Position numbers and translations under genes: made by a program
Shown: in pieces, positions 1,881 to 14,301 of the stretch
How positions within the stretch are numbered: position 1 is the first letter of the stretch
How the letters are laid out: each line of letters opens with the position of its first letter
Notes under the pieces: generated by a model
The model's input: the letters and a program-made list of their open reading frames with translations, nothing else
Told to the model about the DNA's origin: nothing
The model's database searches: none
Source of the DNA: an uncultured Pelagibacteraceae bacterium
GTDB taxonomy: Bacteria; Pseudomonadota; Alphaproteobacteria; Pelagibacterales; AG-422-B15
Direction: 5' to 3'
DNA: 38,139 bases
Assembly: GCA_902624455.1 (NCBI GenBank)
Contig: CACNXQ010000009.1
Coordinates: forward strand, 1 to 38,139

Positions 1881-3089
1881 ATGAAAAAATATATATTCAG
1901 TCTTATAGCCGTATTAGCTCTTGGTCTATTTTATGGATGTGACCAATCTGACCAGGCTTCAACAGACGAAATTAAAATCGGAGTTATTCTTGGGTTCACT
2001 GGACCTATTGAATCTCTAACTCCAACAATGGCATCAAGTGCTGAACTTGCGATGAAAGAAGTTAGTGACTCTGGTCTACTACTTGGCGGCGCAAAGGTAA
2101 GTTCTGTAAGAGCCGACTCAACTTGTGTTGATGCCGGAGCAGCTACTTCTGCTGCAGAAAGGCTTGTAACGTCTGACAATGTTGCTGCTATTATGGGAGC
2201 AGATTGTTCAGGAGTAACAACTGCCATTGCAAATAATGTTGCAGTACCAAATGGTGTAACAATAATTTCGCCATCTGCAACTTCGCCAGCTCTTACTGAC
2301 ATAGATGATAAGGGATACTTTTTTAGAACAGCTCCATCTGACGCTAGACAAGGGCAAGTTTTAGCTCAAGTTGTTATGGACAGAGGCATCAATGAGGTAG
2401 CAGTTACTTTTACAAACAATGACTATGGTAAAGGTTTGTCAGATAGCTTTGTGAATGCATTTAAAGCTATGGGCGGCTCAGTGACAGCTGAAGTTCCTCA
2501 TGAAGATGGTAAAGGCGATTACTCAGCTGAAGTCTCAACACTATCAGCTTCTGGAGCAAAAGAAGTGGCGGTTCTAGGATATGTTGACCAAGGCGGTAGA
2601 GGCATTATTCAGAATTCAATGGAAACTGGAGCATTTTCAAGATTCATTCTTGCAGATGGTATGATAGGTGACTCATTGATAGAAAATGTTGATGGTGATT
2701 TAAGTGGAACATTTGGAACACTTCCAGGTTCTGAGTCTGAAGGTGCAAACATGTTTAAGTCACTTGCATCATCAAACGACATACCTGGCGATGGACCTTT
2801 TGAACCTGAGTCATATGATGCAGCAGCATTAATAATGCTTGCGATTCAAGCTGGTAATTCAGCTGACAGATCTTCTATTGCTCAAAATGTTATGGGTGTA
2901 GCAAACGCTCCTGGAACAGAAATATTCCCTGGTGAACTTGCTAAAGCACTTGAAATTTTGAAAGATGGTGGAGAAGTTAACTATCAAGGTGCAACAAACG
3001 TCGAATTTTCTGACGTTGGTGAAGCCTCTGGTTCTTATAAAGAATTAGAAATCGGAAACGGTAAATTCAATACTGTTACGGTTCGCTAA
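1881..3089 (+). CDS. Branched-chain amino acid-type ABC transporter substrate-binding lipoprotein
   Basis: This 402-residue protein belongs to the Leu/Ile/Val-binding (periplasmic binding protein type 1, PF13458-like) family. It begins with a lipoprotein signal: positively charged MKK, a hydrophobic core, then a lipobox ending LFYGC with Cys20 as the expected lipidated residue. The mature part starts with the family-typical 'IKIGVILGFTGP' strand and includes SATSPAL and NDYGKG, which match the ligand-binding cleft pattern. It would capture a ligand in the periplasm and hand it to LivHM/LivFG. It is encoded convergently with livM rather than inside the permease operon. A purine-rich GGGAG lies 12 bases before the ATG. 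The ligand may not be an amino acid, since this family also binds amides, urea and aromatic acids. Confidence 0.9.
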   Translation: MKKYIFSLIAVLALGLFYGCDQSDQASTDEIKIGVILGFTGPIESLTPTMASSAELAMKEVSDSGLLLGGAKVSSVRADSTCVDAGAATSAAERLVTSDNVAAIMGADCSGVTTAIANNVAVPNGVTIISPSATSPALTDIDDKGYFFRTAPSDARQGQVLAQVVMDRGINEVAVTFTNNDYGKGLSDSFVNAFKAMGGSVTAEVPHEDGKGDYSAEVSTLSASGAKEVAVLGYVDQGGRGIIQNSMETGAFSRFILADGMIGDSLIENVDGDLSGTFGTLPGSESEGANMFKSLASSNDIPGDGPFEPESYDAAALIMLAIQAGNSADRSSIAQNVMGVANAPGTEIFPGELAKALEILKDGGEVNYQGATNVEFSDVGEASGSYKELEIGNGKFNTVTVR

Positions 3090-3109
3090 TTTTTTACCGT
3101 TTTTAGGAG

Positions 3110-3142
3110 AATAGGGGTTTCTTTTAGAGGCCCCTATTTTCT
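3110..3142 (+). terminator. Rho-independent terminator of the binding-protein gene
   Basis: AATAGGGG (3110-3117) pairs perfectly with CCCCTATT (3131-3138) across a 13-base loop, and the stem is followed by a T-rich run. It sits 20 bases after the binding-protein stop. Its right arm overlaps the stop codon of the convergent livM gene. The T tail is only on the + strand side, so it serves mainly the + strand transcript. Confidence 0.75.
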
Positions 3143-4504
3143 TTTAATCCTCTCAGGAATTACCCCTTTAGGCATAAACCGCAGAGCCAACAATAATAAA
3201 AGACCCATTATAAATAGTCTTAAGTGTGCAGCACTTCCAATTAAATGCATTCTTAATGGATTGTCATATGAAAGACCACTTGCAAGTAGATTAACAAATC
3301 CAAGTGAAAGAGGCTCTGCCTCAATCCAAATAAACCAAATAAAGAAACCTCCAAATATGGATCCAAGATTGTTTCCAGATCCACCAACAATAACCATAAG
3401 CCAAATTATAAATGTAAATCTTAATGGACGATATGAACCAGGTGTGAATTGACCATCCAGAGTGGTTAACATAGCACCTGCAATTCCAATAATAGCGCTT
3501 CCGATTATAAAAATTTGAAGATGTTGTGAAAAGATATTTTTACCCATTGCACTCGCAGCTTCTTCATTATCTCTAATTGCTCTTAGCATACGTCCCCATG
3601 GTGCATTAAGAGCAAGCTGACTTAAATAGAAAATTAATAGTAAAACAGAGGCAAACAATCCTGCATAACAAAGTTTTACAAAAATTCCTGAACCATCAAT
3701 AATTAAATCAGATAATAAGTCTTGCCGTTCTGAGAATGATTGAGCAACAGACAATTTTGAGTAATTTATACTTTCAATAATGTTTATAAACCATTCTGAT
3801 TGCTGTAATTCAATTTCATATGGTACAGGACGATCTAACCCTGAGACATTTTTAACACCTCTTGATAACCAGTCTTCATGTTTAACAACTGCAATAACTA
3901 TTTCAGAGATACCTAATGTTGCGATCGCTAGATAATCTGATCTTAGTTTGAGAGTGATCCTACCTATAACCCATGCGATTAAGCCAGCTACTCCAGCTGC
4001 AAATAACCATGAAACTACAATTGGTAATCCTAAGCCGCCAAGAAAACCTGTCTTTGCTGGGTTAATGGACTCAATAATATCAACTGATGGACCATAAAAA
4101 TTATTAATACCAAAAAATGCGACAATCACAGTAAGAATGATGGAAAAGTTTTTAACAAATGAATTCTTTATTGAGCGATATAAATAAAGAATAAGCGTGA
4201 TACTTAAAATAAAAATAATAGCACTGATGATTATGCCTACTCCTGCTTTGTCCCATGCTTCATGCACAGGATCGTGAGATATAAGGACAGCCGTTAAACC
4301 TCCCAGCGCAGTAAAACCCATAACACCAGCATTAAATAACCCTCCAAAACCCCACTGGAGATTTACACCTATAGCCATGATGGAGGAAATTAGGCATAAA
4401 TTAATTATACTTAACGAGACAGACCAAGATTGAGTAAAGCCCACAATTGCAAGAAGTAGCGCCATAATTGAAAATGCAACAGGAGCTCTATATTCTTCTC
4501 TCAT
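3134..4504 (-). CDS. livM: Liv-type ABC transporter permease LivM
   Basis: This is a 456-residue polytopic inner-membrane permease of the BPD_transp_2 (LivM) family. Conserved features are the early 'NLQWGFGGLFNAGVMGF' membrane segment, 'LRSDYLAIATLGISEI', and the cytoplasmic coupling loop 'APWGRMLRAIRDNEEAASAMG' that docks on the ATPases. It is longer than the E. coli-type LivM. The extra length lies in a hydrophobic N-terminal section and a polar stretch (about residues 220-270) between the LAIATLG segment and the later membrane helices. It pairs with LivH to form the channel. Its ATG overlaps the livH stop by four bases (ATGA), indicating translational coupling. It is the last gene of the EamA-livG-livF-livH-livM run. 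Confidence 0.9.
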   Translation of the reverse strand: MREEYRAPVAFSIMALLLAIVGFTQSWSVSLSIINLCLISSIMAIGVNLQWGFGGLFNAGVMGFTALGGLTAVLISHDPVHEAWDKAGVGIIISAIIFILSITLILYLYRSIKNSFVKNFSIILTVIVAFFGINNFYGPSVDIIESINPAKTGFLGGLGLPIVVSWLFAAGVAGLIAWVIGRITLKLRSDYLAIATLGISEIVIAVVKHEDWLSRGVKNVSGLDRPVPYEIELQQSEWFINIIESINYSKLSVAQSFSERQDLLSDLIIDGSGIFVKLCYAGLFASVLLLIFYLSQLALNAPWGRMLRAIRDNEEAASAMGKNIFSQHLQIFIIGSAIIGIAGAMLTTLDGQFTPGSYRPLRFTFIIWLMVIVGGSGNNLGSIFGGFFIWFIWIEAEPLSLGFVNLLASGLSYDNPLRMHLIGSAAHLRLFIMGLLLLLALRFMPKGVIPERIKRK

Positions 4505-5517
4505 ATTACTTTTCCTCTAACGATACCAGTTGGTCTTACAACTAAAACAATTACTAGTATAATGAATGAAATAGCAAATTTATAATCCGTTGATAATATT
4601 TGTGCCAATCCGTCTGGCTCAAGTGATTCTGGAAGTAAATAAATGAAAAATTTCTTATAAGCGTATGTAAGTGTAATTTCTGAAAATGCAATCACATATC
4701 CACCTATAACAGCACCAATGGGAGAACCAATTCCACCAACAATTGCAGCTGCAAACATTGGAAGTAAAAGATTAAAATAAGTGAAAGGTTTGAAACTTTT
4801 ATCTAGACCATATAGAACCCCAGCGATTGTGACTAATGTTGATGCAATTATCCAAGTAACAATAACAACCCTCTCAGGATTTATTCCTGATAATAATGCA
4901 AGATCTTCATTATTTGAGTAAGCGCGCATTGATTTACCCATTTTTGTTTTTTGTAAAAAATAAAATAAAACCGCCATTGATATTAAGGCTATAACCACAG
5001 TAATTACTTGAGTAGATTTTATAGTCAGCCCTTCTTCAAGTCCAAAATAGGCTTTGAAATCCAGAGCATGAATAATAAATTTTTCACCATCAAAAAATTT
5101 TCTATCATTAGGCCCAATTATAAATCTTACAATTGCTTGTAGCACAAACATTACTCCAACTGATACAATCATTAGAACTATGGGTTGACTTTTCTTTTTT
5201 CTATAAAAACTGTAAACCGTTTTATCCATGAACAAACAAAAGATTGACGTTACTACAATTGCAAATGGTAATGCTAATAAAGCAGTTGGAAGAATTCCAG
5301 CTGTTATGCCAATACTTTGAAAGAGCCAGGTAAATAATATTGTTGTCATTGTTCCAAATGACATCCAATCTGCTTGAGCAAAATTTGAAAATCTTAAAAC
5401 CCCATAAATTATTGTCAGACTCAATGTAGCTAAAGCCAATTGACTGCCATATGAAACTGCTGGCACAATTACAAAGTTAGCTAAAAGCACGAGAGCATTT
5501 AAAATATCAATATCCAT
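4501..5517 (-). CDS. livH: Liv-type ABC transporter permease LivH
   Basis: This is a 338-residue BPD_transp_2 family permease with about eight to nine hydrophobic segments. Signatures include 'IYGVLRFSNFAQADWMSFG' near the N-terminus and the EAA-like coupling loop 'TKMGKSMRAYSNNEDLALLSGINPERV'. The C-terminal 'AAAIVGGIGSPIGAVIGGYVIAFSE' segment is typical of LivH. It forms the transmembrane channel with LivM. The start shares one base with the livF stop and the stop overlaps livM by four bases, so the four liv genes form one translationally coupled unit. The imported substrate cannot be determined from the permease. Confidence 0.9.
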   Translation of the reverse strand: MDIDILNALVLLANFVIVPAVSYGSQLALATLSLTIIYGVLRFSNFAQADWMSFGTMTTILFTWLFQSIGITAGILPTALLALPFAIVVTSIFCLFMDKTVYSFYRKKKSQPIVLMIVSVGVMFVLQAIVRFIIGPNDRKFFDGEKFIIHALDFKAYFGLEEGLTIKSTQVITVVIALISMAVLFYFLQKTKMGKSMRAYSNNEDLALLSGINPERVVIVTWIIASTLVTIAGVLYGLDKSFKPFTYFNLLLPMFAAAIVGGIGSPIGAVIGGYVIAFSEITLTYAYKKFFIYLLPESLEPDGLAQILSTDYKFAISFIILVIVLVVRPTGIVRGKVI

Positions 5518-6224
5518 TAACCACCTAGAAAACTTTTCCTGACATCTTGATCATTTAATAATTCGTGACCATGGCCCTCATATTTATTTTCACCGCCTAC
5601 TAAAACATAACCAAAATCAGCAATATTTAGAGCCTGTTTTGCATTTTGTTCCACTATGACTATTGCAACTCCATTGTTTTTTATTTGTAAAATTCGGTCG
5701 AAAATTTCATCCATAACTATGGGAGAAACTCCAGCAGTTGGTTCATCCAACATCAATACTTCAGGTTTTGTCATTAATGCACGACTAACAGCAACTTGTT
5801 GTCTCTGACCACCAGAAAGTTCACCTGCTAGTTGATTACGTTTTTCTCTCATAGCAGGAAAAAGCTCATATATTTCACTGATCGTTTCTTGGATATCATC
5901 AGATCTTAAAAAAGCTCCCATTTCTAAATTTTCTTCAACTGTGAGTTCACTAAAAATATTCATCGACTGTGGGACAAACGCAATTCCTGCAGCAACTCTT
6001 TTTTGTGGTGAATAGTCTGATATATTTTCGCCATTAAGAATGATGCTTCCACTTTTTAATGCAATCATACCTAACATAGCTTTCATTGCTGTACTTTTTC
6101 CAGCGCCATTGGGACCAACAATGACTGATATCTGACCTTTATCAACTTCGATATTGCAATTTTTAATAATATCTTCACCACCATAACCACCAGTCATACT
6201 TGTACAGCTGAGAAATTTACTCAT
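5517..6224 (-). CDS. livF: Liv-type ABC transporter ATP-binding protein LivF
   Basis: This is a 235-residue ABC ATPase. It has Walker A GPNGAGKST (37-45), a Q-loop in 'FVPQSMNIFSELTVEENLEMG', signature LSGGQRQQVAVSRAL, Walker B VLMLDEPTAG with a following 'VSPIVMDEIF' D-loop region, and the switch region VIVEQNAKQAL. The LivF-specific Q-N-A switch distinguishes it from LivG. Its length matches the LivF family. It hydrolyses ATP with LivG to drive import through LivHM. The start overlaps the livG stop by four bases. Confidence 0.93.
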   Translation of the reverse strand: MSKFLSCTSMTGGYGGEDIIKNCNIEVDKGQISVIVGPNGAGKSTAMKAMLGMIALKSGSIILNGENISDYSPQKRVAAGIAFVPQSMNIFSELTVEENLEMGAFLRSDDIQETISEIYELFPAMREKRNQLAGELSGGQRQQVAVSRALMTKPEVLMLDEPTAGVSPIVMDEIFDRILQIKNNGVAIVIVEQNAKQALNIADFGYVLVGGENKYEGHGHELLNDQDVRKSFLGG

Positions 6225-6985
6225 TGTGTTCCACCTCTACCAAGGTAAGCTTCAATCACTTCTTCGTTCTGTGTGACTTCTTCAATACTTCCTTCTAAAA
6301 GAACTGAACCTTCTGTCATGACGATAACCTTATCACACAATTTGGATAAGAAACTCATGTCATGCTCAATCATAAAAAATGTATAATTTTTCTCTTTATT
6401 AAGTTTGATTATTGTATCTGCAATATCATTCAAAAGAGTTCTATTAACCCCTGCGCCAACTTCATCCAATAAAACAATTTTGGCATCTACCATCATAGTC
6501 CTTCCAAGCTCAAGTAATTTTTTTTGTCCACCTGAAAGATTGCCTGCAAGTTCATATGTAAGATGACTTAGATTTAGAAACTCAATAACTTCAAGTGCTT
6601 TCTCCTTAATCACTTCTTCTTCAATCTTAATTTGTTCTCTTTTGAACCAAGTATTTAAAATACTTTCTCCAGTTTGCTGTCCTGGTACAACCATCAAGTT
6701 TTCTAAAACAGTCATATTAGAAAATTCGTGAGCTAATTGAAATGTTCTAAGGACACCTTTGTGAAATAACTCATAGTCGGGGAGGGCAGTAATATCCTCA
6801 CCGAGAAGTGAAACTTGGCCATAAGTTGGTTTTAAGTTTCCAGCAATAACATTAAACAATGTAGTCTTACCCGCACCATTTGGCCCGATAAGGCCGGTGA
6901 TTTGTCCTTCTTCAATCGTCATAGAGGCTTTATCAACGGCTTTGATACCACCAAAATTGATTGATATATCTTTGATTTCTAACAT
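6221..6985 (-). CDS. livG: Liv-type ABC transporter ATP-binding protein LivG
   Basis: This ABC ATPase has Walker A GPNGAGKTT, the LivG-type 'GVLRTFQLAHEFSNMTVLENLMV' Q-loop region, signature LSGGQKKLLELGR, Walker B IVLLDEVGAG and H-loop MIEHDMSF. I chose the ATG at 6985 (254 residues, beginning MLEIKDISINFGG) because LivG proteins begin at this strand. An in-frame ATG at 7021 would add 12 residues with no family similarity. A weak GTAAAGAA precedes the chosen start. It partners LivF. Note LDEVGAG instead of the commoner LDEPxAG; the catalytic Glu is kept. Confidence 0.91.
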   Translation of the reverse strand: MLEIKDISINFGGIKAVDKASMTIEEGQITGLIGPNGAGKTTLFNVIAGNLKPTYGQVSLLGEDITALPDYELFHKGVLRTFQLAHEFSNMTVLENLMVVPGQQTGESILNTWFKREQIKIEEEVIKEKALEVIEFLNLSHLTYELAGNLSGGQKKLLELGRTMMVDAKIVLLDEVGAGVNRTLLNDIADTIIKLNKEKNYTFFMIEHDMSFLSKLCDKVIVMTEGSVLLEGSIEEVTQNEEVIEAYLGRGGTQ

Positions 6986-7026
6986 TTCTTTACAGAATAA
7001 GCATATGTCACTTGTGAGCAATAAAT

Positions 7027-8479: not shown

Positions 8480-8509
8480 TTGTGATTTCTGCTATCCTTT
8501 TACTACATA
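8480..8509 (+). promoter_or_regulatory. Candidate sigma-70-type promoter of the LLM/TPP/ALDH operon
   Basis: TTGTGA (8480-8485) and TACATA (8504-8509) are separated by 18 bases, about 75 bases upstream of the LLM start. The same spacing and -10 sequence appear upstream of trxA. A locally GC-rich stretch with short inverted arms (AGCG/CGCT, 8534-8549) follows and could be an operator. This is pattern evidence only. Confidence 0.35.
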
Positions 8510-8584
8510 GCGATACATAACTCACCAAATTTGGAAGCGGGATCGGTCGCTCATTTTATTGTTAATTTAATAAAAGGAGTAACA

Positions 8585-9760
8585 ATGATTTTTTCTAAAT
8601 TTTTAAACGCCACTAATTGGCATAAGCGTCCATATACAGAAATACTAGATGAAGTAAGAGAGATTACCGAATACTTAGATCAACATTCAAACTTTAAACA
8701 AGTCTGGTTAAGTGAACATCATTTACAGACCACTAATAATTGGACAATGGAATGCGTTCCTAATCCTATTTTACTCGGCGCCGACCTTGCATCTCGAACT
8801 AAAAATATAAGAATTGGTTTGGCCGCCGCTATTGCAACATTTTGGAATCCTCTTAGACTTGCAGAAGATGTTGCTCTACTCGACAATCTAGCTTCTGGAA
8901 GACTTGACGTAGGTTTAGGAAGAGGGGTTTTTGGAAAAGAAGCTATTCACATGAACCTTGAAGCTGATTTAAAAGATCAACCAAAAAACTTTAGATTATT
9001 TGTTGAAACATTAGAGATATTAAAAAAAGCATGGTCTCAAGATTATTTTTCTCACAGTGGTGAATTTTATACTTATCCAGCACCTGATTTCAAATATTCA
9101 AATCCATTATTGAATGAAACATCTGATGTAGTTGATCCTGAAACTAATGTTTTGAAAAAAATTAGTATTGTACCTAAGCCATATCAAAAAGAACTTCCTC
9201 TTTGGCAAGTTGTGGACAGTCCAAGTTCAATCGAGTTTGCTGCTAAGAATGGACTTAACTGTTTGATGTGGCTGCCTACTATTGCCTCTTTAAAATCTCG
9301 CTTTGAAATTTATGCAAATGCGAAATCTGAAGTTGAGCAAAGAGATGTGCCAATGGGTGAAGGTATTGCTCTTGTTCGTGATTGCTTTATTGCCGATACT
9401 ATGGAAGAAGCAAAAGAGTTAGCTGGCAAACATTTTTTACGTTATTTGGTTAGTGTGTGCGGTGGAGGAAGAGGGGTAAGCATTTTTGCAAATCCTGGTG
9501 AAGAGCTTCCAAAAACAGAAAACCCAATTGATCTTTTAACGTATGATTGGATCCATCCGAGAAACCAACTTGTAGGAACGGCTGAATTTGTGACTGAAAA
9601 AATTCATGAGCTAAAGACTGAGCTAAATCTTCAGCACTTAGCAATCTGGTCAAACCCTCCAGGAATGCCTCATGATGCATCTATGAAATCGTTAAAATTA
9701 TTTAATGAAAAGGTTGCTCCACATTTTAGTGATGACAAGTTGATAAAGAAAGTTTCTTAG
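8585..9760 (+). CDS. LLM-class flavin-dependent monooxygenase
   Basis: This is a 391-residue bacterial-luciferase-like (LLM) TIM-barrel protein. The characteristic 'VWLSEHHLQ' strand-loop (Glu44-His45-His46) is followed by 'TKNIRIGLAAAIATFWNPLRLAEDVALLDNLASGRLDVGLGRG', the LLM core motif for flavin phosphate binding. The family uses reduced FMN and O2 to oxygenate small molecules and needs a flavin reductase; none is encoded nearby. I chose the ATG at 8585 because AAGGAG (8574-8579) lies five bases upstream. An upstream in-frame ATG at 8531 would add 18 residues without a ribosome-binding site. It is the first gene of a five-gene operon; its TAG shares a base with the next start. Confidence 0.88.
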   Translation: MIFSKFLNATNWHKRPYTEILDEVREITEYLDQHSNFKQVWLSEHHLQTTNNWTMECVPNPILLGADLASRTKNIRIGLAAAIATFWNPLRLAEDVALLDNLASGRLDVGLGRGVFGKEAIHMNLEADLKDQPKNFRLFVETLEILKKAWSQDYFSHSGEFYTYPAPDFKYSNPLLNETSDVVDPETNVLKKISIVPKPYQKELPLWQVVDSPSSIEFAAKNGLNCLMWLPTIASLKSRFEIYANAKSEVEQRDVPMGEGIALVRDCFIADTMEEAKELAGKHFLRYLVSVCGGGRGVSIFANPGEELPKTENPIDLLTYDWIHPRNQLVGTAEFVTEKIHELKTELNLQHLAIWSNPPGMPHDASMKSLKLFNEKVAPHFSDDKLIKKVS

Positions 9761-11457
9761 TGTCCTCAAAAAAAATGACTGGTGGCGAAGCTGTAGTCGA
9801 AACTTTAATTGCCAACGATGTTGAAGTTGTTACTGGATTAATCGGTTCATCTACCTTGGAAATACTGGACGGACTTTATAATAATGCTGATAAAGTGCGA
9901 TACATTGGATGCCGGCACGAGAGTAATGGCATGATTATGATGGATGCATATGCCAGATATACTGGGAAAAATGGTGTCTTTCTTAGTGGTCAAGCTGGGC
10001 CTGGAGTCAGTAATACAGTAACAGCAATGGCTCAAGCAAAGGCCGCATTCTCACCAGTTGTTAATCTCGCTGGTGCAATAGCATCGGACCATAAGGGTAA
10101 AGATGCTTTTCAAGAGATTGATCAAGTTAGTTTGATGCAGGCAGTATCAAAAAAAGTTTTTGAAGTTAGAGATGTCGAAACAATTCCCCATGTTTTAAAT
10201 GAAGCAATGCAAACAGCACTAACTCCTAGGTCAGGACCTGTACATGTTGATATGCCCAGGGATGTGCTTGGCCAAACTTGCGATTTTGAGAAAGCATCAA
10301 AGTTTGAGACGATTGCAAATCCTATTGCGGATGAAGACAATTTAAGAAAAGCTGTAAATTTGTTAAGCGAAGCAAAGAAACCTGTCATATTAGTTGGTGC
10401 AGGAATAAAAAATTATGGAACAATTGCAGCTGAGAGTGTTTTGAAGTTAGCTGAATTATTAAATGCACCATGCACCATGTCACCAGGCCACGGTGATTCC
10501 CTTCCATATGGCCATCCATTAAATGCTGGATCAGCTGGACCAAGAGGCTCTGGAATTGGTACACAACTTTTAAAAGAAGCTGACGTTATTTTGGTTTTAG
10601 GAAGTCGCTTAGGATTTAACACAACGTTTTATTCATATGATAACCTGAACGAAGATGCATCAATTATACAATGTGAAATTGATCAAAATTCAATTGGTCG
10701 ATATTTTACGGTTGAAGTAGGCATTCATGCTGATGCTAAAACAGTTGCAGATCAACTATTCAATCTCCTTGGGGATCATAAAGCTAAAAAAGAAGTAGAG
10801 GTGTGGGCAGATCAATTTAAAGATAATAAAAAAAATTATCTTAAACAAAGAGATGCTGAAGCTGATATGAGTAGTGTTCCAATTATGCCATCAGGTTTGT
10901 TTAAAGAATTAAGAAATGTATTACCTAATGATAGTGTTGTGACATTAGATGCTGGTACGATGTGTCTTCAATTAACTGACGCACTGCATTACCATCAGCC
11001 AAAGAGTCTATTTTCTCCACTAGATTTTGGATTGGTAGGATTTTCCTATCCAGCTGGTTTAGGAATTAAGTTGGCAGCACCTGAAAGAACTGTTGTTAGT
11101 TTTCATGGCGATGGAGGTGCGTCTATGATTCTCCCTGAACTTTCAACAGCAGTTGAAAATAATATTAATACAGTGTGTGTCGTTATGAATAATGGAACAT
11201 GGGGCGCTGAAGCTGCATACCAAAAAGATTTTTTTGAAGGTCGATATATAGGAGCACATATAACGACTCCTGAATTTGATAAAGCTGCAGAAATCTATGG
11301 GTGTAAAGGCATAAAGGTCGAAAAAGCAACAGAAATTGGTGATGCTATTCAAGCTGCTATTGACGCTGAATGCCCAACAGTAATCGATGTTCAATGTTCA
11401 CCTGATGCATTATATTCTTTCAGGCAAGACTCTTTTAAACATAAAATAAAAAAGTAG
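9760..11457 (+). CDS. Thiamine-diphosphate-dependent enzyme (acetolactate synthase / benzoylformate decarboxylase-like)
   Basis: This 565-residue protein has the three-domain architecture of the POX/IlvB superfamily. The N-terminal PYR domain carries the catalytic Glu54 (CRHE) and 'GQAGPGVSNTVTAMAQAKAA'. A central domain begins near 'AKKPVILVGAGI'. The C-terminal PP domain has the ThDP/Mg motif GDG (450-452) ending in NN (477-478). Such enzymes decarboxylate or ligate 2-oxoacids, or cleave C-C bonds. No small regulatory subunit is adjacent, which argues against a biosynthetic IlvB. The listed start is a GTG overlapping the upstream stop by one base. The ATG at 9775 (MTGGEAVVETL) is an equally possible start. 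The neighbouring aldehyde dehydrogenase could oxidise an aldehyde product (inference). Confidence 0.88.
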   Translation: MSSKKMTGGEAVVETLIANDVEVVTGLIGSSTLEILDGLYNNADKVRYIGCRHESNGMIMMDAYARYTGKNGVFLSGQAGPGVSNTVTAMAQAKAAFSPVVNLAGAIASDHKGKDAFQEIDQVSLMQAVSKKVFEVRDVETIPHVLNEAMQTALTPRSGPVHVDMPRDVLGQTCDFEKASKFETIANPIADEDNLRKAVNLLSEAKKPVILVGAGIKNYGTIAAESVLKLAELLNAPCTMSPGHGDSLPYGHPLNAGSAGPRGSGIGTQLLKEADVILVLGSRLGFNTTFYSYDNLNEDASIIQCEIDQNSIGRYFTVEVGIHADAKTVADQLFNLLGDHKAKKEVEVWADQFKDNKKNYLKQRDAEADMSSVPIMPSGLFKELRNVLPNDSVVTLDAGTMCLQLTDALHYHQPKSLFSPLDFGLVGFSYPAGLGIKLAAPERTVVSFHGDGGASMILPELSTAVENNINTVCVVMNNGTWGAEAAYQKDFFEGRYIGAHITTPEFDKAAEIYGCKGIKVEKATEIGDAIQAAIDAECPTVIDVQCSPDALYSFRQDSFKHKIKK

Positions 11458-11466
11458 GATCATATT

Positions 11467-12048
11467 ATGACACTTGAAATCAGAAAAATGTGCAAGTTTG
11501 TTGATACAACTTACATTGAGGATTTTAAAAAATGTGAAGAGCCAGTTGAGCTCGTATCTGTTGCTGCTGTCATAGCTAATCCATGGGTTGACAAAGGGTA
11601 TGTTGAGGATTTGAAGCCAGAAATTCTCGATATTGCTCCTAAGCTTGGCGATTTTTTAGTTAAATCACTACTTGATGAAATTGGTTCACCTGAAAGGGTT
11701 TTAGCATATGGCAAGGCGAGCATGACAGGAATGAGAGGCAGCATACAACACGCTAGTGCCCTAATTCATACCTTGCACTTTGGAAATAAGTTTAGAGATG
11801 CTGTAGGGGGAACATCTTATCTTTCATTTACAAATGTAAGAGGATTAGCTGCCTCAAAAATATCGATACCAATGATGCATAAAACCGATCCTGGCTTAAG
11901 GCAGTTCTATTTAACTCACGAATTTACTATTCATGATGCTCCGGGACCTGCTGAGCTGATTATTGCAATTGGAGCGAGTACAACACCACAAGCTCATCAC
12001 CGTATTGGAAATAGGTACGAAGATGAAAAGGAAATGGGTCTTAAGTAA
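11467..12048 (+). CDS. PF06684/DUF1185 'amino acid synthesis' family protein
   Basis: This 193-residue protein matches the DUF1185 family, usually named 'amino acid synthesis family protein', although no reaction is firmly established to my knowledge. Family hallmarks visible are 'VAAVIANPWVDKGYVEDLKPEI', 'GKASMTGMRGSIQHASALIH', 'KISIPMMHKTD' and the C-terminal 'HDAPGPAELIIAIGASTTPQAHHRIG'. Family genes often sit beside LLM oxygenases and catabolic enzymes (recalled knowledge, not checked). A GGA-containing element precedes the ATG and the gene starts nine bases after the TPP enzyme stop. It is probably a cytosolic enzyme acting on an intermediate of the operon's pathway. Confidence 0.82.
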   Translation: MTLEIRKMCKFVDTTYIEDFKKCEEPVELVSVAAVIANPWVDKGYVEDLKPEILDIAPKLGDFLVKSLLDEIGSPERVLAYGKASMTGMRGSIQHASALIHTLHFGNKFRDAVGGTSYLSFTNVRGLAASKISIPMMHKTDPGLRQFYLTHEFTIHDAPGPAELIIAIGASTTPQAHHRIGNRYEDEKEMGLK

Positions 12049-12051
12049 TTA

Positions 12052-12840
12052 ATGAAACGCGAAGGACTTGATGATCAAGGTTCCTATTTCAGTATCAATC
12101 AAGTAAGTGGAACAGAACCAATTCTTTTCTGTCATGGAGTTGGTTTATCTTCAAAAATTTGGTATCCGCAAATTAATTTTTTTGAAAATAAACAAACAAC
12201 GATAGTCTATGATTTATTGAATCATGGGCACACAACAAGTTATTCAAGAGATTTAAATTTTGATGATTTTTCAAGCCAAATTGATGGATTACTTCAGTAT
12301 TTACAATATCCTAAGATTAATATAGTTGGTTTTAGTTTAGGTGCACTAATAACTGCACATTATGCATCAATTCACTCCAATAAAGTAAACAAGATCGTTC
12401 TTTTCGGATCAATTCACAAAAGATCAAAATCACAACAAGAAAGTGCACAACATAGATATGAGGAAGTGACAGAAAATTATTTTGATATTCCAAAGCAGTT
12501 ACAGAGATGGTTTAATGAAGACTACTTAAATAAAGATAAGAAAGACGCTGATCTTATTTCAGAAATATTAAGTTCAAACAATCATCAAGATTTCTTAAGA
12601 GCCTATAAACTCTTCGCGTATTTTAAAGATGATATGATTTCTTATGATCAAATTTTAAATAAAACCCTGATAATTACAGGTGAAAATGATATTGGCAGTA
12701 CAAAAGAAATGTCACTAGAGCTTGGAAATACTATTAAAAATGCAGAAGTTAAAATCATTTCTAATGGCAAGCACTTATCTGGTATAGAATGTTCATCAGA
12801 TGTAAACGCAATAATTGGAGATTTTTTAGGCGAGTTTTAA
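12052..12840 (+). CDS. Alpha/beta hydrolase (enol-lactonase-like)
   Basis: This 262-residue cytosolic alpha/beta hydrolase has no signal peptide. It shows HGVGLSSKIW at the oxyanion region (residues 28-37), the nucleophile elbow GFSLG (93-97, Ser95), a probable acid Asp213 (GEND) and base His241 (GKHLSG). It therefore has a complete triad. Size and pattern resemble 3-oxoadipate enol-lactonase and RutD-like hydrolases. It starts three bases after the DUF1185 stop and ends immediately before the ALDH start. In the operon it would plausibly hydrolyse a lactone, ester or amide made by the monooxygenase (inference). The substrate is unknown. Confidence 0.86.
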   Translation: MKREGLDDQGSYFSINQVSGTEPILFCHGVGLSSKIWYPQINFFENKQTTIVYDLLNHGHTTSYSRDLNFDDFSSQIDGLLQYLQYPKINIVGFSLGALITAHYASIHSNKVNKIVLFGSIHKRSKSQQESAQHRYEEVTENYFDIPKQLQRWFNEDYLNKDKKDADLISEILSSNNHQDFLRAYKLFAYFKDDMISYDQILNKTLIITGENDIGSTKEMSLELGNTIKNAEVKIISNGKHLSGIECSSDVNAIIGDFLGEF

Positions 12841-14301
12841 ATGGTTGAAGCTTATAAAATGTATATTGATGGTAATTTTGTAGACTCTGCAAATAAAGTT
12901 ACGTTTGAAAGTTACAATCCTGAAAACAATACAGCCTGGTCAACTTTCCCAGAAGCTTCGATTGATGATGTTGATAAAGCCGTGGGCTCAGCAAAAAAAG
13001 CATTCAAAACATGGTCAGTATTAGATGTAAAAGTTAGAGCAGAATATTTAAGAGCGATTGGTGATCAATTATTTGATAACGCTGAACATATAGGAAGAAT
13101 TGAAACTATTGATAGTGGAAAGCTATTTAAGGAAACCAAATTTCAAGCTCAGTATATGAAAGAGTATTTTCACTATTATGCTTCACTCTTAGAAGAAATG
13201 AGTAATGAAAAAATAATTCAAGATATTGATAAACCGGATATGGAAGTAGTTGAAGTATCTGAACCCATTGGTGTAATCGCTTGTATTATACCTTGGAATT
13301 CTCAAATGTTTCTAACGGCAACAAAAGTTGCACCAGCATTGGCTGCAGGAAATACAGTGGTAATCAAATCATCTGAACTTGCGCCAGCTCCTCTCGCAGA
13401 ATTTGCAAAGCTTATAGATAAAACAAATTTACCTGCTGGCGTAATCAATATTCTTAGCGGTGGAATAGATACTGGTAAAATTTTAACGTCTCATAGTGAT
13501 ATTGGTAAGGTTCTATTTACTGGAGGCACTGAAACAGGACGTCATATAATTAAAAACACATCTGAGAATTTTGCACAATTAACCCTTGAGCTTGGAGGAA
13601 AGTCCCCTGTTATAGTCTTTGATGATGCTGATATTGATAACGCTTTAAACAATATAACCACTGCAATTTTCTCTGGTAATGGCTGTAGTTGTATTGCTGG
13701 TTCAGTCTTAATTTTGCAAAATGGTATCTACGACAGCTTTTTAAATTCATTAAAAGAACGTGCAGAGAATATTAAGCTTGGTTCACCTTTAGAGGAAGGC
13801 TCTCAAATGGGACCACTAAATAATATTAAGCAAGTTGAGTTCATTGAACAAAATATTGAGTCATCGATACAGCAAGGAGCTAACATCATAACGGGAGGGA
13901 AGCGAGTTGAAGGGTGCTATTTTCCACCAACTATTATTGAGTGTCCAGATAGAACAGTTAATACTGCTAACACAGAATTATTCGGACCAGTGTTATCAGT
14001 GATTAAATTTAAAACTGAAGAAGATGCCATTCAAATAGCTAACGATAATGATTATGGTCTGTCATCAGGTGTATTTTCTGAGGATGAAGAGAAATGTAAA
14101 AGAGTAAGCAAATCAATTGAAGCAGGAATTTGCTTTACTAATTGCTATAGATTTATTTCTTATGCCGCTAGTTTTGGAGGTAGAAAAAATAGTGGATATG
14201 GTAGAGAAAGTGGATCGGATGCAATCAGAGATATGCAACTAAAAAAAACAATTTGGGTCTCAAAAGCAAAAGTTACTGAAGATCCATTTAAAATTAGGTA
14301 A
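12841..14301 (+). CDS. NAD(P)-dependent aldehyde dehydrogenase
   Basis: This is a 486-residue ALDH-superfamily protein. Motifs in order are IPWNSQMF with the oxyanion Asn, the nucleotide-binding FTGGTETGR, general base Glu250 in LELGGKSP and catalytic Cys284 in GNGCSC. The C-terminal 'PTIIECPDRTVNTANTELFGPV' and 'GGRKNSGYGRE' segments are typical. It oxidises an aldehyde to the acid. Two details are unusual: the usual G-Q-x-C before the nucleophile is G-C-S-C, and the Arg usually found after CxAGS is Val. The gene starts with no gap after the hydrolase stop and is the last gene of the operon. Its stop abuts the convergent UPF0114 gene with no terminator visible. Confidence 0.92.
   Translation: MVEAYKMYIDGNFVDSANKVTFESYNPENNTAWSTFPEASIDDVDKAVGSAKKAFKTWSVLDVKVRAEYLRAIGDQLFDNAEHIGRIETIDSGKLFKETKFQAQYMKEYFHYYASLLEEMSNEKIIQDIDKPDMEVVEVSEPIGVIACIIPWNSQMFLTATKVAPALAAGNTVVIKSSELAPAPLAEFAKLIDKTNLPAGVINILSGGIDTGKILTSHSDIGKVLFTGGTETGRHIIKNTSENFAQLTLELGGKSPVIVFDDADIDNALNNITTAIFSGNGCSCIAGSVLILQNGIYDSFLNSLKERAENIKLGSPLEEGSQMGPLNNIKQVEFIEQNIESSIQQGANIITGGKRVEGCYFPPTIIECPDRTVNTANTELFGPVLSVIKFKTEEDAIQIANDNDYGLSSGVFSEDEEKCKRVSKSIEAGICFTNCYRFISYAASFGGRKNSGYGRESGSDAIRDMQLKKTIWVSKAKVTEDPFKIR

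Follow-up and report, generated by a model that had tools for sequence, protein, structure and literature searches.

The locus examined here raises two questions: which compound is degraded by the compact operon at positions 8585 to 14301, and what controls its expression. The window, that is, the whole stretch of 38,139 nucleotides analyzed, belongs to a SAR11/HIMB59-like genome of 1.32 Mb that is 99% complete, and its closest public loci were SAR11/HIMB59-type single-cell genomes and MAGs catalogued as Pelagibacteraceae. SAR11 cells dominate the surface ocean and are among the most abundant marine microbes. They possess few regulators, and few pathways by which they handle aromatic nitrogen compounds are known.

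The operon consists of five uninterrupted open reading frames (ORFs), all on the + strand, whose products scored above the Pfam cutoffs for Bac_luciferase, TPP_enzyme N/M/C, AA_synth (PF06684), Abhydrolase_1, and Aldedh. The first gene (8585 to 9760) encodes an LLM-class flavin monooxygenase (PF00296, E 8.9e-41), the proposed ring-opening oxygenase in a TgnB-like role. It starts with an ATG shortly downstream of an AGGAG, and the longest version of the ORF begins with a TTG at 8531. The remaining genes encode an accessory ThDP-dependent enzyme with a GTG start (9760 to 11457), a PF06684/DUF1185 protein (11467 to 12048; 184 bits against a cutoff of 27), an alpha/beta hydrolase (12052 to 12840; PF00561), proposed to act as an N-formyl-enamide hydrolase in a TgnD-like role, and an aldehyde dehydrogenase (ALDH; 12841 to 14301). 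The LLM and ThDP genes overlap by the one base common to TAG and GTG, and gaps of 9, 3, and 0 bases follow. The tight five-gene operon described in an earlier sequence-only reading was therefore exact in ORFs, families, and spacing, and its view that the genes serve oxidative catabolism, with an LLM oxygenase acting first, also held.

A neighborhood survey of PF06684 with LLM and ThDP genes, suggested by the same reading, was conducted on 80 public loci with PF06684 relatives, of which 63 (SAR11/HIMB59) had complete context. In all 63, the LLM gene preceded the PF06684 gene, and the hydrolase and ALDH genes followed it on the same strand, and the arrangement is therefore not due to chance. The ThDP gene was located between the LLM and PF06684 genes in only 15 of the 63 loci, so that the core comprises four genes with ThDP as an optional addition. 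Across the order, PF06684 was present in 47 of 147 sampled genomes and in 36 of the 106 good ones.

Soil bacteria open the nitrogen-containing ring of trigonelline with the tgn gene set. The degradation pathway, said to have been described by Perchat et al. in 2018, reportedly passes through an N-formyl enamine that is hydrolyzed to formate, an amine, and an acid. A reference cluster, tgnF-D-A-B-C, is annotated in Acinetobacter sp. PK01 (NZ_CP094644). The PF06684 protein of the window shared 54% identity with the TgnF-position protein of this cluster, the ALDH was 45% identical to TgnC, and the hydrolase was 26% identical (E 1e-35) to the protein in the TgnD position. In phylogenetic trees, both the PF06684 protein and the ALDH grouped with tgn-type proteins, the latter falling with the TgnC type at 99 to 100% SH-aLRT and apart from SSADH. 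The LLM was 25% identical to TgnB (25 to 28% when two further LLMs in the TgnB position were included), and its clade was separate from that of TgnB. Many tgn-type clusters were among the top matches of the ALDH search (10,572 ALDH places), and several of the top plasmid matches of the hydrolase were located in such clusters. PF06684 proteins on plasmids formed two clearly separated groups, with approximately 47 to 55% and 28 to 30% identity to the window protein. Where annotated regions from the first group were opened, an LLM and an ALDH were encoded nearby, mostly together with a flavin reductase and a hydrolase, while the one member of the second group that was opened had a context different from that of the TgnF clade. 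The PF06684, ALDH, and hydrolase searches thus converged on the same clusters, and this was counted in favor of a tgn-type cassette.

Hence, a pathway that had been called unassigned contains two proteins, PF06684 and the ALDH, that belong with the trigonelline cassette and a hydrolase that probably does, and the operon is probably a SAR11/HIMB59 variant of a known LLM-initiated ring-opening cassette. Nor does the PF06684 protein have to be the key unknown step that it had been considered, since its homologue TgnF is reported to stimulate the succinate-semialdehyde step (PMC7913881). No second (succinate-semialdehyde) dehydrogenase was found within the operon. Flavin reductase (PF01613) was likewise absent from the operon, as had been noted previously, and its sole match in the genome was on another contig. 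Clusters of tgn type with the same components occur in other genera. A variant cluster without a visible reductase was found in Parasedimentitalea marina (L104, 4902 to 13300), where the LLM, PF06684, hydrolase, and ALDH genes were accompanied by RidA, CoA transferase, and carnitinyl-CoA dehydratase-like genes. Plasmid pDCT5 of Arthrobacter dokdonellae (L143, 1353 to 6068) carried two PF06684 genes with hydrolase, ALDH, tautomerase, and LLM genes, a possible pyridine-type pathway in an actinobacterium. In Sulfitobacter (L147, 519 to 7585), two adjacent copies from the second PF06684 clade were located beside a molybdopterin oxidoreductase and UPF0280.

A link between both kinds of cluster was provided by a gene set in a larger alphaproteobacterium (G211; locus L108), which combines an LLM of the window type (same clade, 46% identity) with tgn-like genes. 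This set encodes a LysR regulator, a Rieske enzyme, a flavin reductase, the LLM, PF06684, a hydrolase, and an ALDH, the last three being TgnF-, TgnD-, and TgnC-like, and it contains no ThDP gene. The best NCBIfam model for the Rieske enzyme was GbcA, a betaine demethylase, at a score far below the cutoff. Two distant lineages encode GbcA-like Rieske oxygenases, also below the cutoff, close to the cassette (L108, 10504 to 15019; L010, 14041 to 15192), which hints at a substrate with quaternary nitrogen.

The ThDP enzyme fits less readily into such a cassette: no counterpart was found in the tgn clusters examined, and a thiamine-dependent reaction, which had been suggested as part of the pathway, is not a core step because 48 of the 63 intact loci lack the gene. 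Its best NCBIfam match was Xsc, but it scored below the cutoffs, with 397 bits for TIGR03457 (cutoff, 676) and 427 bits for PRK07525 (cutoff, 620), and in the tree it branched separately, next to Xsc and an enzyme of Ruegeria. The latter, SPO_RS21380, was its nearest relative identified outside SAR11 (41% identity). The gene for this Ruegeria enzyme is located on the Ruegeria pomeroyi megaplasmid (L082, 2351 to 11671) in an operon with genes for an MttB-like methyltransferase, a class III aminotransferase, and two FAD oxidoreductases, and the substrate of that operon is perhaps a quaternary amine.

The reading that we prefer, with a probability of about 0.62, is that the operon would be the SAR11/HIMB59 form of a pyridinium ring-cleavage cassette, with translation under the control of a leader RNA. 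We infer each reaction of the following pathway by analogy. With reduced flavin supplied by a reductase encoded elsewhere, the LLM would insert oxygen into a small N-heteroaromatic betaine or carboxylate and open its ring, giving an N-formyl enamine that bears an aldehyde. The TgnC-like ALDH would oxidize the aldehyde, and the TgnD-like hydrolase would split the N-formyl enamine, with formate, an amine, and a C4/C5 acid as products, the acid entering central metabolism. The PF06684 protein may aid a late reaction, as TgnF reportedly does, and in some lineages only, the ThDP enzyme may act on a side product or in an alternative branch. Counting against this reading are the position of the LLM outside the TgnB clade, the low identity of the hydrolase to TgnD (26%), the lack of a reductase and of a second dehydrogenase in the operon, and the absence of a ThDP counterpart from the tgn clusters examined. 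Since the LLM occupies a clade of its own apart from TgnB, the simplest view is a common ring-opening cassette that begins with another enzyme, and the substrate is likely a ring related to, but different from, trigonelline. Among candidate substrates, we would place homarine first, followed by trigonelline and, after it, some other pyridine carboxylate. Ring opening by TgnA/TgnB, with which trigonelline degradation starts, is thought unlikely on homarine (PMC8269262). A conserved homarine pathway was reported in a 2026 paper, according to PMC13390433, where it is cited.

Two further candidates for evidence on the substrate were considered and rejected. A LivKMHFG-type set lies beside the operon (1881 to 7021), and among 59 loci of the 70%-identity group, 54 had such a set within 6 kb of the operon, although the closest relatives of the window did not have it nearby. 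LivK was found in 109 of the 147 genomes of the order, most of which lacked the operon; because Liv is common irrespective of the operon, it was not taken as a dedicated importer or as evidence on the substrate. An N-methylglutamate dehydrogenase as support for homarine was also set aside, as the related large oxidase (35%) could not be distinguished from sarcosine oxidase.

One alternative is that the cassette is of tgn type and acts on trigonelline itself, the divergent LLM merely reflecting an old split. This would agree with the identities of the PF06684 protein and ALDH to trigonelline-cluster proteins, but the substrate-specific step is that of the LLM, which is only 25 to 28% identical and whose separate clade was also found with other neighbors. 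Moreover, trigonelline is scarce in marine particles (1 to 300 pM, compared with 0.6 to 67 nM for homarine; PMC8269262), and we consider this alternative unlikely. A sulfonate pathway, in which the ThDP enzyme would act like Xsc and the LLM as a desulfonating monooxygenase, appears less probable still. Alkanesulfonate monooxygenases do belong to the LLM enzymes, and no NCBIfam model matched the ThDP enzyme better than Xsc, but the score of 427 bits is below the cutoff of 620 and the enzyme is outside the Xsc branch. SfnG-type models matched the LLM weakly, far below the cutoff; the ThDP gene is missing from 48 of 63 intact loci, and neither PF06684 nor a TgnC-like ALDH is known to act in such a pathway. 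The least probable alternative, a Rut-like pathway for a pyrimidine or a related amide ring, would account for an LLM beside an alpha/beta hydrolase, and the RutD model did match the hydrolase (E 2e-16). However, the match reached 60 bits against a cutoff of 238, no RutB-type amidohydrolase or RutC was encoded in the operon, and PF06684 and the ALDH pointed to tgn-type clusters. The resemblance to the Rut pathway in outline, which the sequence-only reading had drawn, therefore extends to the LLM and the hydrolase, while the other partners differ and the tgn cassette is the closer parallel; the same reading was right that the substrate is probably not pyrimidine.

With regard to control, the statement that no regulator is adjacent was correct for proteins, but a conserved RNA element was found directly upstream. 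In the alignment, the region 5' of the LLM gene contained strongly conserved blocks even in loci with LLM proteins just 55% identical. A structured leader RNA was delineated there (8508 to 8552, + strand). Its closing stem, P1, pairs A8509-A8513 with U8547-U8551; a second stem, P2, pairs C8525-A8528 with U8531-G8534 in a hairpin of variable length among loci; and the internal loop contains a nearly invariant UACAUAACUC and an invariant GGGAUC. Changes on both sides were observed for 7 of 13 pairs, a level reached in 0 of 500 shuffles, although derivation of the structure from the same sequences favors this result somewhat. Slid pairings scored far worse than the proposed structure.

A covariance model of the leader, R1, matched the window with E 8.7e-10 and was found in 48 of the 147 genomes of the order, compared with 47 for PF06684. 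There was a single match per genome, except for one genome with two (G404), and apart from the second copy in G404, the LLM gene was directly 3' of the leader in every genome opened. The mismatches between leader and PF06684 were attributable to contig ends that cut the locus: three genomes with the leader and no PF06684 match (G417, G419, and G430) had sequences ending in mid-operon, and in two with PF06684 and no leader (G386 and G405), the contigs started too late to hold it. The orphan copy in G404 (contig C2; L184, 1802) was located beside Amdase-family and M24 peptidase-like genes, which adjoin the operon in another locus (L033), and looks like a remnant, a scar of deletion or relocation. 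Outside the order, R1 had no match among 385 genomes of the class under strict filters that may lose weak matches. No Rfam family matched the leader, with nothing near 8500, and viral contigs held no exact copy of the leader RNA pattern; scans for promoters and terminators gave site numbers not above those of shuffles. The main texts of RNA surveys described no such leader motif. The leader is thus conserved, covarying, strictly linked to the operon, and uncatalogued in Rfam, and it probably controls the operon.

How it may do so was suggested by its surroundings. A hairpin of UUUUAUU and AAUAAAA (8554 to 8575, + strand), obtained by folding and with two pairs in which both partners are altered in 7 of 25 sequences, abuts the ribosome-binding site of the LLM gene, AGGAG (8575 to 8579, + strand). 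Some of the bases able to pair with this site also belong to the 3' strand of P1. In folding calculations, the ribosome-binding site was free at a mean of 0.50 with P1 formed and 0.23 with the P1 5' strand blocked, and in 24 of 25 leaders the formation of P1 left it more accessible (mean gain, 0.27). Controls with shuffled spacers gave a mean gain of 0.17, and because 29% of them reached the observed 0.27, the P1 switching model is not established. The architecture is nevertheless suggestive of a translational on-switch, and we propose that the leader may be a substrate-sensing translational switch. The P1 closing stem would compete with pairing around the ribosome-binding site, and ligand binding to the RNA would turn on translation of the operon; that a small molecule is bound, and that switching runs in this direction, is what we infer. 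If the leader is a riboswitch, its ligand should be a compound of the pathway.

A conserved, covarying 5' leader structure in front of one kind of gene, as found here, is a riboswitch trait. Long invariant internal-loop segments between covarying stems, resembling riboswitch aptamers, and the fixed place by the ribosome-binding site with freely varying loop lengths argue in the same direction and against a protein-binding or other leader structure. Such a structure nevertheless comes fairly close to an even chance, given that there is a single target operon and that the switching energetics are not significant. The most specific form of the riboswitch proposal, a new class limited to SAR11/HIMB59 that would sense a marine N-methylpyridinium compound (e.g., homarine) and turn on an LLM-initiated ring-opening pathway in about one-third of genomes, is accordingly tentative and, taken as a whole, doubtful. 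A pyridinium-opening operon in approximately one-third of the sampled genomes would tie SAR11 to an abundant pool of phytoplankton metabolites. The leader RNA is a more surprising part of the locus than the operon. It opens the question of the substrate to direct testing, and an operon-specific RNA provides a direct handle on that substrate.

Several known systems can be compared with this locus. The pyridine pathway pyrA-E of Arthrobacter sp. 68b starts with two-component flavin-dependent ring cleavage; by description alone, it and the homarine pathway resemble the proposed route as aerobic pyridine catabolism leading to central metabolites. Other SAR11 leader RNAs, namely, SAM-V (PMC2704228) and the TIGR03647, fcbT1, and RS05825 candidates (PMC6429828), are likewise positioned by the ribosome-binding site, but the main texts of these two papers describe none upstream of an LLM operon. 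The G211 cassette shares the LLM clade and the four core enzymes with the window, and it alone has the reductase, Rieske, and LysR genes, whereas no RNA leader was found there. The tgn cluster, finally, also combines PF06684, ALDH, hydrolase, and LLM oxygenase in one compact unit. It differs in that the window has an LLM of another clade, an inserted ThDP gene, a different gene order, and no flavin reductase (TgnA), and in that many tgn-type clusters have a GntR regulator beside them, whereas the window has an RNA leader.
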